Shown here: positions 25,519-35,204 of the stretch, one piece after another
Layout of the letters: every line of letters begins with the position of its first letter
Numbering within the stretch: the stretch's first letter is position 1
From: Brevibacterium sp. S22
GTDB lineage: Bacteria > Actinomycetota > Actinomycetes > Actinomycetales > Brevibacteriaceae
Length of the DNA stretch: 64,000 nt
Direction of reading: 5' to 3'
Assembly (NCBI RefSeq): GCF_004745485.1
Contig: NZ_RHFG01000003.1
Location: 186,001-250,000, forward strand
The notes under the pieces: model-generated
Seen by the model: only the letters and a program-made list of their open reading frames with translations
What the model was told of the DNA's origin: nothing
Database searches by the model: none
Program-made: the position numbers and the translations under genes

Positions 25519-26364
25519 TCAGTCCATTGCCGTCAGCGCACGGTTGAGCGCAACCGCGGAGTCGGCCAGACCCTCGGGCCCGGCGCCGAGCACTGCCCGG
25601 GACGCTGTGGCGAGCACCTGTCTCGAGGCCAAGGCTCGGTCGCCGAAGACCTCGCGCAGCTCGGCCAGACCGGCACCCTGAGCGCCGACGCCCGGGGCGA
25701 GGATCGGTCCCCCGCAGTCGCTGGGATCGATGCCGAGGTCCTTCGCCGCACGCCCGATGGTCGCTCCGACGACGAGTCCGTAGGGACCGAGCTCAGCGGA
25801 GGAACCGAATGTGTGAGCATTGCGCTGCCGCACCTGGGACACGATCGATCCCGCCACCGAAGTGCCGCCGGCTCCGGCGTGTTGGACCTCGGCGCCTTCC
25901 GGGTTCGAGGTCAGCGCGAGGACGAACACGCCCTTGCCGTGGGCGTCAGCGAGAGCGAACGCCGGCTCCAGCGCGCCGAAGCCGAGGTAGGGCGAGGCCG
26001 TGATCGAATCCGCTGCCAGCGGCGAGGCCGGATCGAGGTAGGCCTTCGCATAGGCGCCCATGGTCGACCCGATATCACCGCGTTTGATGTCGAGGACGGT
26101 GAGCAGCCCGGCTTCCCTGGCCGCGGCCAGGGTCTCTTCGAGAGCGGCGACCCCCGCGGAGCCGTACTGTTCGAAGAACGCGGACTGCGGTTTCACCGCG
26201 GCGACCGTCCCCTTGAGCTCGGAGACCGTGCGGAGAGCGAACTCTCGCACGCCTGCGGCACTGGCCGGCAGCCCCCAGGAGGCCAGGAGGTGCTCGTGCG
26301 GGTCGATGCCCACACACAGCGGTCCGTGCTCGTCCATGGCGGCTGCCAGTCGGGTACCGAACAT
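25519..26364 (-). CDS. pyrF: Orotidine 5'-phosphate decarboxylase (type 2)
   Basis: Last step of UMP synthesis. The 281-residue protein belongs to the longer actinobacterial type: CVGIDPHEHLLASWGL at the N-terminus, KPQSAFFEQYG, and the catalytic LTVLDIKRGDIGST segment. APGVGAQG binds phosphate. The ATG shares bases with the carB stop (TGATG). Confidence 0.97.
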   Translation of the reverse strand: MFGTRLAAAMDEHGPLCVGIDPHEHLLASWGLPASAAGVREFALRTVSELKGTVAAVKPQSAFFEQYGSAGVAALEETLAAAREAGLLTVLDIKRGDIGSTMGAYAKAYLDPASPLAADSITASPYLGFGALEPAFALADAHGKGVFVLALTSNPEGAEVQHAGAGGTSVAGSIVSQVRQRNAHTFGSSAELGPYGLVVGATIGRAAKDLGIDPSDCGGPILAPGVGAQGAGLAELREVFGDRALASRQVLATASRAVLGAGPEGLADSAVALNRALTAMD

Positions 26365-29300
26365 CAGGCGCTCCAGTCCTGCAGGCTGCGCACGTCGAAC
26401 TTCGAGTCCCGGATGACCTCGAGCGAGGTCACGGCGGCGGCGAATTCGGCGAGAGTCGTGATCAGCGGCACCGAGTTCGCGGTCGCAGCGGCCCGGATCT
26501 CGTACCCGTCGGCACGTTCCTGCCGACCCGAGGGGACGTTGATGACCATGTCGATGGTGCCTGCGGTGAGGTAGTCGATGACCGTGCGGTCCTCGGCGTC
26601 GGCCTCGAAGTGCTTGTGCACCTGAGTGGTCTTTATCCCGTAGCGGGAGAGCACTGCCGCGGTGCCGGTGGTCGCGACGACGTCGAAGCCCATGTCGATG
26701 AGCTCCTTGACCGGAAGCACCATGGCCCGTTTGTCCCGATCGGCCACGGAGACGAACACGGTGCCCGAGGTCGGCAGCTTCACGGATGCGCCGAGGAGGC
26801 CCTTTGCGAAGGCGGTCGGGAAGTTGTGGTCGATGCCCATGACCTCACCCGTCGAGCGCATCTCGGGTCCGAGGATCGAGTCGACGATCTTGCCTTCGAC
26901 GGTGGTGAACCGGCGGAACGGCAGGACCGCCTCCTTGACGGCGATCGGATGGGTCAGCGGCAGGGTCGAGCCATCGCCCTCTGCGGCCAGCAGGCCACCG
27001 CGCAGATCGTCGATCGACCGTCCCACGGCGATGAGAGCCGCGGCCTTGGCCAGCTGGGTGGAGGTCGCCTTCGAGACGAAGGGCACGGTCCGTGACGCCC
27101 GCGGGTTGGCTTCGATGACGTGGAGGACGTCGGCGGCGATCGCGAACTGGATGTTGAGCAGTCCGCGCACACCCACTCCCTCGGCGATGGCTTTTGTGCC
27201 CTGGCGGACGCGTTCGAGCACATCGTCGCCCAGGGTCAGCGGGGGCAGCACACAGGCCGAGTCACCGGAGTGGATTCCGGCCTCCTCGATGTGTTCCATG
27301 ATTCCGCCGATATAGACCTCGCTGCCGTCGAAGAGGGCGTCGACGTCGATCTCGATGGCGTCTTCGAGGAACCGGTCGACGAGGACCGGACGGTCGGTCG
27401 AGATCTCCGTGGCACTGGCCATGTAGTCGAGCAGCTGTGTGCGGTCGTAGACGATCTGCATTCCGCGGCCGCCGAGGACGTAGGAGGGGCGCACGAGGAC
27501 CGGGTAGCCGATGTTCTCGGCGATCGCGGCGGCTTCGGCAGCGGTCACCGCGGTGCCGTGCTTGGGTGCGGTGAGTCCGGCCCTCTCCAGCACAGCGCCG
27601 AACTCTCCGCGGTCCTCGGCCAGGTCGATGGCTTCGGGCTGAGTGCCGAGCACCGGCACGCCTGCGGCCTTGAGCTTGTCGGCCAGCCCCAGCGGGGTCT
27701 GTCCCCCGAGGGTGCACACGACGCCGAGGACCTCACCGGCGGCGAGCTCCGCGTGGTAGACCTCCATGACGTCTTCGAACGTCAGGGGTTCGAAGTACAG
27801 ACGATCGGCGGTGTCGTAGTCGGTCGACACGGTCTCGGGGTTGCAGTTGACCATGATCGTCTCGTACCCGGCCGAACCGATCGCCATGGTGGCGTGCACG
27901 CACGAGTAGTCGAACTCGATTCCCTGTCCGATCCGATTCGGTCCGGAGCCGAGGATGATCACGGCAGGTCGGTCACGGGGCGCGACCTCGGTCTCGGTGT
28001 CGTAGCTCGAGTAGTGGTACGGCGTGTGTGCTTCGAATTCGCCGGCGCAGGTGTCGACTGTCTTGAACACCGGACGCACGCGCAGAGCGTGGCGGATGCC
28101 GGTGACGACACCGGTGTCGAGGACACGCAGGGCCGCGATCTGCTCATCGGAGAAGCCGTGGTTCTTCGCAACCCTCAAGACCTGCTCGTCGAGTTCGTCG
28201 GCGTCGCGGATCACCGCGGCGACCTCGTTGATGAGCTGGATCTGGTCGAGGTACCAGGGGTCGATCTCGCAGGCGTCGAAGACCTCTGCCGCACTCAGCC
28301 CGGCGGCGAGGCCGCGCTGGACCGAATGGATGCGGTCAGCAGTGGCGTGCGAGATGGCTTCGAGGACGGATTCGCGGACCTCGTCGTCGGAGACGTCGGG
28401 CAGGTCGTTCCAGCTGAAGGAAGCGTCCTTCTGCTCGAGTGAGCGCATCGCCTTCTGCAGTGCGGTGGTGAAGTTGCGCCCCAGGGCCATGACTTCGCCG
28501 ACCGATTTCATCGTCGTCGTCAGGGTCGGATCCGCTGCCGGGAACTTCTCGAAGGTGAAGCGTGGGATCTTCACGACCACATAGTCCAGGGTCGGTTCGA
28601 AGCTGGCCGGGGTGACCTTCGTGATGTCGTTGGGGATCTCGTCGAGCGAGTAGCCGACGGCGAGCTTCGCGGCCATCTTCGCGATCGGGAAGCCCGTGGC
28701 CTTCGATGCCAGGGCCGAAGACCGGGACACGCGAGGGTTCATCTCGATGGTGATGATGCGTCCGGTCTTCGGGTCGACGGCGAACTGGATGTTGCATCCG
28801 CCGGTGTCCACGCCCACGGCGCGGATGATGGCGATGCCGATATCGCGCATCGACTGGTATTCCCGGTCGGTCAGGGTCAGGGCGGGTGCCACGGTGATCG
28901 AGTCACCGGTGTGCACGCCGACGGGATCGACGTTCTCGATCGAGCACACGACGACGACGTTGTCCTTGTTGTCGCGCATGAGCTCGAGTTCGTACTCCTT
29001 CCACCCGAGGATCGATTCCTCGAGCAGCACCTCGTGGGTGATCGAGTCGGACAGACCGGCCCCGGCGATGCGGCGCAGATCGGCTTCGTCATAGGCCATG
29101 CCCGAGCCGAGGCCGCCCATGGTGAACGAGGGGCGGACGACGACCGGGTAGTTGAGCTCCTCGGCCGCGGCCAGAGCTTCGTCGAGGGTGTGGCAGATGG
29201 CCGAGCGGGCCACCTCGGCGCCGCAGTCTTCGGCGATGTCCTTGAACTTCTGCCGGTCCTCGCCACGCTGGATGGCGTCGACATCGGCGCCGATGAGTTC

Positions 29301-29639
29301 GACACCGTACTTCTCGAGCACTCCCGCGTCGTGGAGGGCGATGGCAGCGTTGAGCGCGGTCTGTCCACCGAGGGTGGGCAGGAGCGCATCGGGACGCTCC
29401 TTCTCGATGATCGTCTCGATCACCTGCGGATCGATGGGCTCGACGTAGGTGGCGTCGGCGATGTCCGGATCGGTCATGATCGTCGCCGGGTTCGAGTTGA
29501 TGAGGATGACGCGCAGGCCTTCGGAGCGCAGCACGCGGCAGGCCTGGGTCCCCGAGTAGTCGAACTCGCAGGCCTGACCGATGACGATCGGGCCGGAGCC
29601 GATGACGAGGACGGATGTGAGGTCTTGTCTCAGTGGCAT
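26364..29639 (-). CDS. carB: Carbamoyl-phosphate synthase large subunit
   Basis: Forms carbamoyl phosphate from bicarbonate, ATP and ammonia delivered by CarA. The 1,091 residues contain two ATP-grasp halves: the first with [21 protein letters not shown] and VEVMNPR-type [11 protein letters not shown], the second with [19 protein letters not shown] and [16 protein letters not shown]-terminal MGS-like allosteric domain (about 950-1091) would bind UMP or IMP. AAGGAG site 6 nt before the ATG. It follows carA by 12 bp. Confidence 0.98.
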
Positions 29640-29651
29640 TGGGTGTTCTCC

Positions 29652-30812
29652 TTAGGCCTGGGCAGCCGAATCGGCCTGGGAAGCGGACATGAGATCGACG
29701 AAGCGATCGAACAGGTAGCTCGAATCATGCGGGCCGGCCGCAGCCTCGGGGTGGAATTGGACGGAGAAGGCGGGAATGTCGAGGCAGGAGAGTCCTTCGA
29801 CGACATCGTCGTTGAGGCACACATGGGAGACGGTCACGCGGCCGTAGTCGGCCGTGTGCGGGGCGATGGTCTCTCCCTGAAGCGGAGCGTCGACGGCGAA
29901 GCCGTGGTTCTGCGAGGTGATCTCGACCTTGCCGGTGGCCCGGTCCATGACGGGCACGTTGATCCCGCGGTGGCCGAAGGGCAGCTTATAGGTGCCGAAG
30001 CCCAAGGCCCGACCGAGCAGCTGGTTGCCGAAGCAGATTCCGAAGAACGGCAAGCCTGAGTCGAGCACGGCACGCAGCAGTTCGACTTGGTCGTCTGCGG
30101 CGGCGGGGTCGCCGGGACCATTGGAGAAGAAGACTCCGTCGACGCCCAGGGCCTGGATCTCTTCGACGCTGATCGTCGACGGCAGCAGGTGGACGTCGAT
30201 TCCGCGTTCGGTCAGTCGCTGCGGTGTCATCGATTTGATGCCGAGATCGACAGCGGCGACGCTGAACCTCTTCTCCCCGCGGGCGGGGATGAGCGTGGGT
30301 TCGGTGATCGAGACTTCGTCGACGAGGTTGGCTCCGGCCATCTGCGGTGAGGCGAGGACACGGGCGAGGAGTTCGGACTCGGACGCCTCGGCGGCGGGGC
30401 CGGAGAAGATGCCGACTCGCATGGCGCCCTTGTCGCGCAGATGCCGGGTCAGGGCTCGGGTGTCGACATCGGAGATGCCGACGATCCCGGACTCGGTCAG
30501 CCAGTCGACGAGGTCGCCTTCGGCCCGCCAGTTCGACGAGATCCGGGAGGCGTCACGGACGACATAGCCGGCCGCCCAGATCCGGGCGGATTCGTCATCG
30601 GTGCGGTTGATGCCGGTGTTGCCGATGTGCGGAGCGGCCTGGATGACGATCTGCCGGTGGTAGGACGGGTCGGTCAGCGTCTCCTGGTAGCCGGACATGG
30701 CAGTGACGAACACGGCCTCGCCGGTGGTCTCGCCAACGTGTCCGTAAGCGGATCCGTGGAAGGTCCGTCCGTCTTCGAGGACGAGAACGGCGGGGATGGT
30801 GGAAAAGCTCAT
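29652..30812 (-). CDS. carA: Carbamoyl-phosphate synthase small subunit
   Basis: Glutamine amidotransferase subunit that feeds ammonia to CarB. The ATG at 30812 gives 386 residues. The N-terminal domain ([13 protein letters not shown]) is followed by a class I GATase with SNGPGDP, the nucleophile in [14 protein letters not shown], and the catalytic His/Glu in VQFHPEA. A far longer open frame upstream is not coding. The start overlaps the stop of the PH-like gene (ATGA). Confidence 0.98.
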
Positions 30813-31303
30813 TGTGCCTCTTCGATCATTTCGCGGATGCGGTCGACGGTGGGGGTGGTGGATGCGGCGTAGCGGGCACGGAATCCCGTGTCGACGAGGG
30901 TGTCGCCGAGGTGCCAGGTGATGCGGATGATGCCTCCGCGTTCGACGAATTTGCCGATCATCCCGTTCGTGGTGTCCACGGAGACGATGTCGCGGCGCGG
31001 GATGAGGAAGTCCTCGCGGCCGGCCAGGTCCATGATCACTCCCCCGTCGGTGACGACGAGTTCCCCGGTGGTGCGGATGCCCAGACCGTGGACGGCGACA
31101 CGTTCGAGCGGATGTCCGGCCTTCGTCGTCGACACATAGGAGCCTTCGACGGGATCGGACACGGGCTTGATGCCCAGATGGGGCTTCGGCGGGGTGACGA
31201 CTTCCGCCTGTGCCCGTTTGCGTCGGCTCCATCCCCATGCGATCGCGACGATCACGAGGAGGATGACTGCGGCGACGATGAGTGTGCCTACTGTTCGGTC
31301 CAT
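30809..31303 (-). CDS. PH-like membrane protein of the pyr operon
   Basis: Protein of 164 residues with one N-terminal membrane helix (about 5-24), a basic stop-transfer (WSRRKRAQ), then a PH-like beta domain ([44 protein letters not shown], quoted only in part by family feel). The same kind of gene lies between pyrC and carA in mycobacteria (Rv1382 position), so the placement is conserved, but its function is unknown. The ATG overlaps the pyrC end by 16 bp. Confidence 0.85.
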
Positions 31304-32601
31304 GTTGCTCCTGCCGGGTGGGGTGTGGTGAGTGCCCCTGCGGCCAGTACCCGGTGGCCGTAGAAGAAGGTGTCGGTGACCTGTGCGGTCACTTCGACGC
31401 CGGCGAAGGGATTGTTGCGTCCCTTCGTGGCGTGGTCGGCGGGTTCGATGCGGTGCGGTGCGGTCGGGTCGACGAGGACGATGTTCGCGCTCGCACCGAT
31501 CTCGAGGCTGCCGTGCCCGGAGGCTCCGGTGATGCGGGCCGGAGCCGAGGACATCACACGGGCCACATCGCCGAAGTCGAAATCGTGGTCGGCCATGGCG
31601 GCGACGACGATGGACAGAGCGGATTCCATACCCACCATGCCCATGGCCGCGGCGGTCCATTCGCTGCACTTGTGCTCGGCGGTGTGTGGGGCGTGGTCGG
31701 TGCCGACGACGTCGATCGTGCCGTCGGCCAGGGCAGCCCGGAGCGCCTGCACGTCCCGATCGGTGCGCAGCGGCGGATTGACCTTGAACACGGGGTCGAA
31801 GGTGCGCACGAGTTCGTCGGTGAGCATGAGATGGTGCGGAGTCACCTCGGCGGTCACGGCGATCCCGCGGGCCTTGGCCCAGCGGATGAGATCGACGCTG
31901 CCGGCGGTCGAGACATGGCAGATGTGCAGTCGGGATCCGACGTGTTCGGCCAGGAGCACATCGCGGGCGATGATCGACTCCTCGGCGACGGCGGGCCAGC
32001 CGGGCAGTCCGAGTTCGGCCGAGACCGTTCCCTCGTTCATCTGCGCGCCTTCGGTCAGGCGCGGTTCCTGGGCATGTTGGGCGATGATCCCGTCGAAGGT
32101 CTTGACGTATTCCAGGGCGCGGCGCATGAGCAGCGGATCGGAGACGCAGATGCCGTCGTCGGAGAACATCCGCACACGGGCACCCGAGCGTGCCATGGCA
32201 CCCAGTTCGGCCAGCTGCCGACCTTCGAGTCCCGTGGTCACGGCGCCGACGGGAACGACCTCGGTGAATCCGGCGGCGCGGCCCAGCCGGTGCACCTGTT
32301 CGACGACGCCGGCGGTGTCGGCCACAGGCGCGGTGTTGGCCATCGCGTGGACGCAGGTGAACCCGCCGGAGGCCGCCGACCGGGACCCGGTGAGGACGGT
32401 CTCGGCATCCTCCTTGCCGGGTTCGCGCAGGTGAGTGTGCATGTCGACGAGTCCCGGCAGGGCCACGAGGCCTGCGGCATCGACGGCCTCGCAGTCGCCC
32501 GCGGCCAGCAGTTCGGGGTCGACGATGCGGCCGTGCCGAATCGCGATGTCGGCGACGCCGCGTCCGAGCACATCGGCACCGCGGATGAGGTAATCAGTCA
32601 T
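31288..32601 (-). CDS. pyrC: Dihydroorotase
   Basis: Cyclises carbamoyl-aspartate to dihydroorotate. The 437-residue amidohydrolase has the zinc-binding [12 protein letters not shown], further metal ligands in ICHVSTAG and EVTPHH, and the catalytic Asp in VVGTDHAPH. Class I type. The start overlaps the pyrB stop by 8 bp. Confidence 0.98.
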
Positions 32602-33574
32602 TGGTCTCCTCCTGACCGGTCAGCAGACGGTAGAGGACCGCCATGCGCACGCTCACTCCGTTCTCGACTTGGTCGAGGACGAGGGCGCGGGGTGAGTCCG
32701 CTGCATCAGCGGAGATTTCGAAACCGCGGTTCATGGGGCCCGGGTGCATGATGAAGGTCGACTCGGGCAGTGTGGCCAGTCGGGCCGCGCTCAGTCCCCA
32801 CAGACGCGCGTATTCGCGTTCGTTGGGGAAGAAGGATTCTTCCATCCGCTCCTGCTGGACCCGCAGCATCATCACCGCCGCGAAGTCCTCGGTGCTCAGT
32901 GCCGCATCGAAGTCGAAGTGAACGGTCACCGGCCAGTCGTCGACTCCCCAGGGCAGCAGGGTGGGTGGGGCGATGAGGTGGACGTCCGCACCGAGGCGGG
33001 CAAGCAGGTGGACATTCGACCGGGCCACCCGGGAGTGCAGGATATCGCCGACGATGGCGACCTTCGCGCCGTCGAGTCCCTGACCACGCGGTCCCCCGGT
33101 CACCGGCCCCGAGGCGGGGACTCCGGCCAGTGCCCGGCGCAGGGTGAACGCGTCGAGCAGGGCCTGGGTGGGGTGTTCATGCGTGCCGTCTCCGGCGTTG
33201 ACGACGGGGACGTCGATCCACCCGGTGTGGGCGAGGCGATGGGCGGTCCCGGCCCCGGAGTGGCGGACGACGATGGCGTCGGCGCCCATGGCCGAGATCG
33301 TCTGGATGGTGTCCTGGAGGCTCTCGCCCTTCGACACGGACGAACCTTTGGCGGAGAAGTTGAGCACATCCGCCGACAGCCGTTTGGCGGCGGCTTCGAA
33401 GGACAGTCGTGTGCGGGTGGAGTCTTCGAAGAACAGGTTGACCACGGTGCGTCCGCGCAGCACGGGCAGCTTCTTGACTTCGCGCTGCGAGACGAGAGTC
33501 ATCTCTTCGGCGATGTCGAGGATGGCGATGGCGTCCTCACGGCTGAGCGCGGCGGTGTCGAGCAGATGCTTCAT
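32594..33574 (-). CDS. pyrB: Aspartate carbamoyltransferase catalytic subunit
   Basis: Joins carbamoyl phosphate and aspartate. The 326 residues carry the carbamoyl-phosphate site [31 protein letters not shown], and the aspartate-binding HPGPMNRG loop. No pyrI regulatory chain is present. There is a 12-residue Gly/Pro-rich insertion ([12 protein letters not shown]) ahead of the KVAIVGDI strand. ATG overlaps the pyrR stop (ATGA). Confidence 0.98.
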
Positions 33575-34122
33575 TCGCGACCTCCGGAGATGGTCACGGC
33601 ATCGTCTCCGTCGATTTCGGTCAGGGAGACGTTGACTCGTTCGCTGCTCGACGTCGGCAGGTTCTTGCCCACATGGTCGGCGCGGATGGGCAGGTCGCGG
33701 TGGCCGCGGTCGACGAGGACGGCGAGACGGACTTTGGCAGGACGGCCGACATCGGCGAGAGCATCGAGCCCGGCGCGGATGGTGCGTCCGGAGAAGAGCA
33801 CATCGTCGACGAGGACGACGGTCTTCGCGTCGATTCCCGCACTCGGGATGGAGGTGGGCTCCGGTGCCCGGTAGGAGCCGCCGCGCAGGTCATCGCGGTA
33901 CATCGTGATGTCGAGGCTGCCGGCCAGTTCGACTGCGGTCTCCGGTCTTCCTGCGATCGAGGCGATCGCCTCGGCGAGCCGGTCGGCCAGCGGGACTCCG
34001 CGGCGTGGGATGCCGAGGAGGACGAGGTCGTCGCTGCCCTTATTGGATTCGATGATCTCGTGAGCGATGCGGGTGATCGCCCGCGAGATATCGGGGGCGT
34101 CCAGCACTGTTCGCTGTGTCAT
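33571..34122 (-). CDS. pyrR: Pyrimidine operon regulator / uracil phosphoribosyltransferase
   Basis: UMP-responsive RNA-binding regulator of the pyr genes, often with weak UPRTase activity. The 183-residue protein has the PRPP loop [36 protein letters not shown] and the dimer-interface region [11 protein letters not shown]. First gene of the operon. The untranslated leader contains a recognisable PyrR binding loop that pairs over the ribosome binding site, so PyrR probably represses its own translation and that of coupled downstream genes. Confidence 0.97.
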
Positions 34123-34126
34123 ATTT

Positions 34127-34162
34127 CCCCTTCTCCGCCTCTCTGGACGGTGGTTAAAGGAG
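34127..34162 (-). promoter_or_regulatory. PyrR-binding hairpin over the pyrR ribosome binding site
   Basis: On the minus strand the 36-nt leader segment folds as CUCCUU / AAGGGG (one G-U pair), an internal loop, CCG / CGG, and the terminal loop UCCAGAGAGG (34138-34147). That loop matches the conserved PyrR-recognition sequence known from Bacillus pyr leaders. The AAGGGG strand is the likely Shine-Dalgarno, 4 nt before the pyrR ATG, so PyrR binding would hide it. Mycobacteria use a translational form of PyrR control. Confidence 0.8.
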
Positions 34163-34174
34163 TGGTTCGATTCG

Positions 34175-34180
34175 ATTGTA
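34175..34180 (-). promoter_or_regulatory. Candidate -10 of the pyr promoter
   Basis: TACAAT on the minus strand, 53 bp before the pyrR ATG. A start about 7 nt further on would give a leader of about 45 nt just holding the PyrR hairpin. No convincing -35 hexamer is present. Confidence 0.5.
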
Positions 34181-34204
34181 GACCCGGTGGAGCGCCCACC
34201 GACG

Positions 34205-34229
34205 GGCGGGTCCGAACTGCGGACCCGCC
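34205..34229 (-). terminator. Strong hairpin after nusB
   Basis: Perfect 10-bp stem GGCGGGTCCG / CGGACCCGCC with a 5-nt loop, starting 4 nt after the nusB stop and ahead of the pyr promoter. No T-run follows on the minus strand. Probably ends or attenuates the aro-efp-nusB transcript. Confidence 0.6.
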
Positions 34230-34232
34230 GAC

Positions 34233-34643
34233 TCAGATGAGTGTCGGTTTGACGTCGAGGATGCGTGAGAGCAGGCCGGAGACGAAACCGGGTGAGTCAT
34301 CTGTGGAGAACTGCCTAGCCAGGGACACTGCTTCGTCGATGGCCACCTTGTCGGGGACCTCGTCGTTGAACAGCATCTCCCAGGTTCCGATCTCCAACAG
34401 CGACCGGTCGACGGCCGGCATCCGATCCAGGGTCCAGCCCTGCGCGTAGGTGGAGATGATCTCGTCGATCTCCGCCTGCTTCTCGGTGATGCCTCTGACG
34501 ATCTCGACCGCGTATTCCTTCATCGGGTAGTCGGGATCGTTCGACCGCATGGTGACGAGTTCGTCCATGGCCAATCGGCGCTGCCCGGCTTCGAAGAGCA
34601 GCTCAAGAGCCCGGCGACGGGCTCGGGTGCGTGCCGATGCCAC
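34233..34643 (-). CDS. nusB: Transcription antitermination factor NusB
   Basis: Component of the rRNA antitermination complex with NusE. The 136-residue all-alpha protein has [19 protein letters not shown] at the N-terminus, [16 protein letters not shown] and [26 protein letters not shown] (arginine-rich RNA surface and NusE contact). The GTG start immediately follows the efp stop (TAAGTG). Confidence 0.97.
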
Positions 34644-35204
34644 TTACTTGACGCGTCCGAGGTAGTCGCCGCTGCGGGTGTCCACCTTGACCTTGGTGCC
34701 CTCTTCGAGGAACAGGGGCACCTGGATCTCGTAGCCGGTCTCGAGAGTCGCCGGCTTCGAACCGCCGGTGGAACGGTCGCCCTGCAGGCCGGGTTCGGTG
34801 TGGGTGATGGTCAGCTCGACCGAGGGCGGCATCTCCACCGACAGCGGGGTGCCTTCGTGGAAGGAGATCTGCAGCTCCTGGTTCTCGAGCATGTAGTTCG
34901 CAGCATCACCGACGAGCTCCGTGGAGATGGTGACCTGGTCGTAGTCCTCGGAGTCCATGAACACGTAGTCGGTGCCGTCGTGGTAGAGGTACTGCATATC
35001 GCGGCGGTCGACGTTCGCGGTCTCGACCTTGGTGCCGGCGTTGAAGGTCTTGTCGATGATCTTGCCGCTCGTCACGCTCTTGAGTTTGGTGCGAACGAAC
35101 GCCGGCCCCTTGCCGGGCTTGACGTGCTGGAACTCCAGCACCTGCCACAGCTGGTTGTCGAGGTTGAGCACAAGGCCGTTCTTCAGGTCGTTCGTTGTCG
35201 CCAC
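34644..35204 (-). CDS. efp: Translation elongation factor P
   Basis: Relieves ribosome stalling at polyproline. The GTG at 35204 with AAGGA 8 nt upstream gives 186 residues; the longer open frame upstream is unsupported. Loop KPGKGPAF places the functional residue at Lys32, flanked by prolines as in the actinobacterial type. No epmA/epmB modification genes are nearby, which fits a form working unmodified, but this is inference. Confidence 0.98.

Follow-up and report, generated by a model that had tools for sequence, protein, structure and literature searches.

The window analyzed here, the whole stretch of 64,000 nucleotides from Brevibacterium sp. S22 (contig NZ_RHFG01000003.1, positions 186,001 to 250,000), carries on its minus strand a run of pyrimidine biosynthesis genes headed by pyrR, with nusB upstream of it. 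A hairpin lies immediately ahead of the pyrR start codon and is itself preceded by a predicted promoter element.

34175 to 34180, minus strand: predicted -10 element TACAAT (a conserved TANNNT box)
34127 to 34162, minus strand: putative PyrR-binding-loop hairpin (sequence, match to covariance model R2, covariation, energies of two inner registers)
34162-34156 paired with 34133-34127, minus strand: outer stem of the hairpin
34150-34146 paired with 34139-34135, minus strand: inner stem of the hairpin
34145-34140, minus strand: hexaloop CAGAGA
34127 to 34132, minus strand: Shine-Dalgarno (SD) sequence AAGGGG, the 3' arm of the outer stem (low unpaired probability, opening cost, 16S tail found in the genome)
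33571 to 34122, minus strand: pyrR, with its ATG at 34122-34120 (NCBIfam NF003547, 265.9 bits, cut-off 230)
32594 to 33574, minus strand: pyrB, aspartate carbamoyltransferase (ATGA overlap with pyrR)
31288 to 32601, minus strand: pyrC, dihydroorotase (8-nt overlap with pyrB)
30809 to 31303, minus strand: bacterial PH-like domain protein (Pfam bPH_11, E 9.3e-33; 16-nt overlap with pyrC)
29652 to 30812, minus strand: carA (ATGA overlap with the preceding PH-like-domain gene)
26364 to 29639, minus strand: carB (12-nt gap after carA)
25519 to 26364, minus strand: pyrF (TGATG junction with carB)

The product of pyrR scores above the cut-off of its family model and aligns over residues 4-178 with the solved PyrR 1a3c. 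This alignment includes a 12-residue stretch that we take to be the PRPP motif and shows T18, H22, R141, R146 and K152 to be conserved, presumably the residues that contact RNA in the PyrR of B. subtilis. Among the best 80 of 424 named relatives, the nearest are Brevibacterium species, the PyrR of B. sediminis sharing 96% identity. The PH-like-domain (bPH_11) gene, which sits between pyrC and carA and overlaps both, has counterparts encoding similar proteins at the same place in genomes G241 and G296.

On the minus strand, positions 34162 to 34120 read CUCCUUU, AACCA, CCGUC, CAGAGA, GGCGG, A, GAAGGGG, AAAU and AUG; in continuous form, CUCCUUUAACCACCGUCCAGAGAGGCGGAGAAGGGGAAA occupies 34162-34124 and is followed by U and AUG. 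The loop sequence UCCAGAGAGG, its closure by CCG/CGG and the outer stem CUCCUU/AAGGGG, all named in the original prediction, are present, and the AAGGGG arm is the SD sequence as claimed, with a 4-nt gap between GGGG, which ends at 34127, and the ATG. The element carries the PyrR-loop consensus UCCNGNGAGG with a short closing stem and CCUU/AAGG outside it, and it overlaps the SD of the first gene, as a translational operator does. These details of the hairpin are confirmed well beyond chance, a case that is made by conservation and not by fold energy.

Fold energy was dropped as a proof of the hairpin, z being only about -1 for stretches of 51-59 nt (-1.06 to -1.36; -12.9 kcal/mol, with 21-28 of 200 shuffles as good) and +0.51 at 121 nt, where the fold was no better than the shuffles (135 of 200). 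Also, the thermodynamic optimum is a different register of the inner stem, at -12.9 kcal/mol versus -12.5 kcal/mol for the CCG/CGG register, with probabilities of about 0.66 and 0.27-0.33, respectively; it is the CCG/CGG register, and not the energy optimum, that covariation favors. What folding bears out of the proposed structure is the pairing of the AAGGGG arm, which is found in both registers; the CCG/CGG pairing is not the optimum and the energy is unexceptional relative to shuffles. In the modeled ensemble of 34169-34060, AAGGGG has an unpaired probability of 0.001-0.047, and opening it would cost 6.7 kcal/mol, as compared to an SD:anti-SD energy of -6.9 to -9.2 kcal/mol, calculated with the 16S tail GGATCACCTCCTTTCT, which occurs once in the genome. 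Judging from these rough energies, the hairpin would be so balanced against the ribosome that a bound protein could tip the balance.

The site was searched for with two covariance models. Model R2, trained on 23 sequences with the Brevibacteriaceae left out, matches it with 45 bits (E 2.1e-12 for the window, 1.4e-10 for the whole genome) and detects no second convincing site genome-wide, the next match having an E of 1.98. Model R1, whose training included the window's own site, gives 55.6 bits (E 2.6e-11 in the genome) and no further convincing site genome-wide (next match, E 1.71). An additional R2 match in the window at 26799-26817 on the plus strand, antisense to carB (17.1 bits, E 0.0033 in the window), was taken as chance because it is absent from the R1 list and from the genome-wide R2 search.

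Allowing up to 2 substitutions, the motif was found in 80 named relatives (the best 80 of 424) and in 59 of the 60 family genomes. Removal of 7 loci fetched in duplicate from the 139 with the motif left 132 nearer leaders, a set that excludes locus L137, which has no simple match and comes from the 60th family genome (G034). At positions 530-595 of this locus, two PyrR-loop-like inner segments lie inside a single CCUUU and AAGG; it looks like a duplicated variant, arisen either by real duplication or by assembly error.

Compensatory changes in the leaders of relatives, which the original prediction had called for, are seen in the inner stem. A MAFFT alignment of sequences of unequal lengths (A1) had its 5' arm shifted, so the analysis relied on sets of equal length (A2, A4) and on alignments fitted to the model (A3, A5). 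A5 holds 100 of 140 loci (the 80 named ones, which are the best 80 of 424, and 20 of the 60 from the family; 76 distinct sequences), including all 34 training rows of R1, and A3 holds 100 of the 110 loci fetched around loops of the phylum (94 distinct sequences, the window's site among them). In these two alignments, whose fitting to the model favors the model's structure, double-changed cells amount to 30 in A5 versus a shuffled mean of 12.0 (none of 500 shuffles reaches 30) and to 99 in A3 versus 32.3. When the pairing partners were slid by 1-3 columns, at most 14 (A5) and 41 (A3) such cells were obtained. Pairs changed on both sides number 5 of 13 in A5 (mean of 3.0 in 500 shuffles, 10 of which reach 5) and 8 in A3, with no excess of further pair types in A5 (14 versus 13.4 in shuffles). 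By way of example, one pair in A5 occurs as CG 64, AU 5, UA 4 and GC 2 times and is never unpaired, and another in A3 as GC 49, CG 31, AU 8, GU 3 and UA 1. The small equal-length set A2 shows little covariation, with 3 pairs changed on both sides versus 2.5 in shuffles. Most of the changes affect the inner stem and the ends of the outer one. Little variation is seen in the CCUU/AAGG core, which therefore yields almost no covariation evidence; its letters may be preserved by PyrR contact or by their role as SD.

Occurrence of the loop follows that of PyrR within the class of Actinomycetota to which Brevibacterium belongs. Among 148 class genomes, 146 have PyrR (E <= 1e-20) and 146 have the loop (E <= 0.01), the same two genomes (G384 and G447) being devoid of both. 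In a sample of 296 genomes from the phylum, PyrR occurs in 280 and the loop in 143 as counted by a class-trained model under strict filters, about half of the PyrR genomes showing no loop visible to that model; 107 of the 110 loci fetched around phylum loops contain PyrR. Second, weak loop matches in L198 (G135) and L207 (G173), with no PyrR in the fetched stretch, are probably due to chance. A hairpin that hides the SD by itself, at the modeled opening cost given above, might be thought to act independently of PyrR, either as a plain sequestering structure or as an RNA thermometer. However, a thermometer has no need of a conserved loop, most of the loop letters are invariant in the aligned relatives and match the loop part of the Rfam PyrR model RF00515, and the two sampled class genomes lacking PyrR also lack the loop, all of which makes a PyrR-independent hairpin highly improbable.

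Upstream of the loop, a TANNNT box ending at a distance of 8-27 nt is present in 123 of the 132 leaders versus 6 in a control window (mean of 12.9 and maximum of 30 in 200 base shuffles). A consensus scan for a full sigma-70 promoter gave none, the -35 side not being recognizable. The position of the box suggests that transcription very probably starts near 34168, upstream of the loop. Between nusB and pyrR, a perfect 10-bp inverted repeat without a T run occurs at 34205-34229 and may mark the end of the nusB transcript.

In agreement with the original prediction, no terminator was recognized in 33400-34700; none lies between the loop and the first gene, and the intrinsic terminator behind the loop that is typical of PyrR transcription attenuators is absent. 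A strict terminator scan likewise returned 0 of the 132 nearer leaders; in 131 of them, a start codon in the PyrR frame follows AAGG at a distance of 5-15 nt. The exception, L131 (G043), has pyrR in two frames and an intact leader. For the phylum sample, from whose 110 loci L198, L207 and L238 (without PyrR) were dropped, near starts were found in 22 of 23 class loci and terminators in 0 of 23; the class locus that misses the start rule, L172, has by eye an ATG 11 nt behind AAGG. Outside the class, 31 of 74 loci have a near start, 10 have a terminator and 33 have neither, as judged by the same strict scan. The two features never coincide in one locus: none of the 53 loci that have a near start has a terminator, versus 10 of the 44 other loci (Fisher p 2e-4, kinship among the loci being ignored). 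The layout of loop followed by intrinsic terminator before pyrR, as in attenuation, was observed outside the class in L188, L193, L197, L203, L213, L239, L240, L244, L247 and L249.

The window was also scanned with Rfam at gathering scores, which gave no entry. RF00515 does match the loop, but with 30.8 bits (E 0.013 in 301 bases) it falls short of the gathering score of 54, because the model also covers the terminator. At that score, it recovers none of 20 named relatives (drawn from the best 80 of 424) and, among 20 loci from outside the class, 6 of the 10 that have a terminator and none of the 10 that have a near start; five further translational loci are missed even at E <= 0.1. What the Rfam model detects is the loop together with a terminator, and treating the lack of a hit strictly would wrongly discard the site; since the 20 relatives do not reach the score either, the shortfall was not counted as excluding the loop. 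As regards RF00515 and the Bacillus pyr attenuators, the loop CCUUU...GUCCAGAGAGGC...AAGG matches the 5' part of the Rfam model. Unlike in the model, which includes a terminator, AAGGGG in Brevibacterium is an SD and no terminator comes after it. In favor of attenuation of the Bacillus type, in which PyrR stabilizes an anti-antiterminator and a downstream terminator stops transcription, the same loop precedes terminators in 10 of 74 loci outside the class, 6 of these 10 reaching the gathering score. Here, however, the terminators are missing both from 33400-34700 and from the 132 nearer leaders, and with the ATG 4 nt past the stem an attenuator could not be accommodated ahead of pyrR, so that attenuation at this site is scarcely credible. 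In the literature consulted, pyrR RF00515 appears among 43 motif families (PMC3766115), the B. subtilis anti-antiterminator is described (PMC4347634) and PyrR is mentioned only as a self-regulating RNA-binding protein (PMC2965389).

The leader is interpreted, with high confidence, as a PyrR-controlled translational operator at which PyrR would repress translation initiation. Observed are the site, its structure and conservation, the lack of a recognizable terminator and the co-occurrence with PyrR, which support this reading; PyrR binding, UMP dependence, repression and coupling are what we infer, repression by UMP-PyrR from homology and from the precedent in Mycobacterium smegmatis. The transcript would very probably begin just a few bases before the hairpin, and PyrR, presumably bound to UMP, would hold the CCGUC CAGAGA GGCGG loop, closed by CCUUU/GAAGG, in its folded form. 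No ribosome could then start as long as the loop is folded, because the 3' arm of the stem is the pyrR SD. When UMP-PyrR is lacking, the hairpin would hold only marginally against the ribosome, and translation would go on. The effect would be passed to pyrB, pyrC and later genes through overlapping or abutting genes, by translational coupling or polarity, and translation of the pyrimidine-synthesis operon would in this way be switched off when pyrimidines are plentiful.

PyrR-dependent translational repression was reportedly described in M. smegmatis by Fields and Switzer in 2007, where the pyr transcript is said to begin with a PyrR loop that lies at the first ribosome-binding site and to have no terminator. 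Going by this description, the putative Brevibacterium operator is alike in the position of its loop at the first ribosome-binding site and in the lack of a terminator, and its transcript is likewise predicted to begin with the loop, but it belongs to a different genus. The mechanism is already known from mycobacteria, and the Brevibacterium site would extend it to another genus.

Coupling to the later genes is suggested by the gene overlaps and, indirectly, by a comparison of carA locations described below. The ATGA overlaps that had been proposed hold for pyrR/pyrB; the pyrB/pyrC junction is instead an 8-nt overlap (ATGACTGA). SD-like sequences of their own occur at pyrB, pyrC and carB, and in view of those at pyrB and pyrC the coupling may be partial and could be weak. 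With such sequences, re-initiation need not depend on pyrR translation, and PyrR might repress here while its effect on pyrB to pyrF runs mainly through polarity (Rho-dependent termination or mRNA decay). Overlaps at all junctions except carA/carB, with its 12-nt gap, speak against this, sequence alone not being decisive; we regard polarity as the main route as possible but rather unlikely. It would in any case be compatible with translational control by PyrR, competing only with its last step.

Additional information on the reach of the operator comes from a Nocardioides-like genus of the class. Five of the class genomes sampled contain two loops, the second directly before carA in each (L255 in G418, L257, L258, L260 and L261) and with SD and start codon arranged as at the pyrR loop. 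In two of these five, pyrC and carA fall on the same fetched stretch and are 1.4 and 2.7 kb apart; in four one-loop genomes of the genus carA abuts or overlaps pyrC. A wider look covered 59 genomes of the genus, whose nearest PyrR among the 132 loci is that of Nocardioides (78% identity), and 58 carA places, second carA pieces in G490, G498 and G510 being left out and G487 (7% contamination) being counted twice. A loop was found within 150 nt of carA in 34 of these places and none in 24. The latter lie 2783-3033 nt behind the pyrR loop, which is the distance of a carA directly after pyrC. Places with their own loop are 2938-25925 nt behind it (32 places), two others having no other loop on the contig. 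Expressed by distance, all 31 carA places lying farther than 3.1 kb from the pyrR loop have a loop of their own, as compared to 1 of the 25 nearer ones (G504, at 2938 nt). The genomes are related and the events therefore not independent, but such a distribution is consistent with one operator for each coupled gene run.

These comparisons make it likely, though less firmly than for the leader itself, that the PyrR loop serves this class of Actinomycetota as a portable translational operator, with a fixed AAGG that doubles as SD, one copy per coupled gene run and a separate copy at a departed carA in one Nocardioides-like genus, and that in other classes the same loop can drive terminators, giving two output modes of which Rfam misses the translational one. 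The class-wide comparison, with its class picture, two output modes, Rfam gap and carA case, matters more than the single site, suggesting that PyrR control in the class is usually translational, a form overlooked by the Rfam model. Also, the split of carA in one genus suggests a natural experiment on how far down the operon a single operator reaches. No report of a carA loop of its own was found in the open literature searched, most subscription journals lying outside it. Outside the class, one locus (L262, in G284) carries a PyrR loop ahead of carA, and a start codon follows its AAGG closely.
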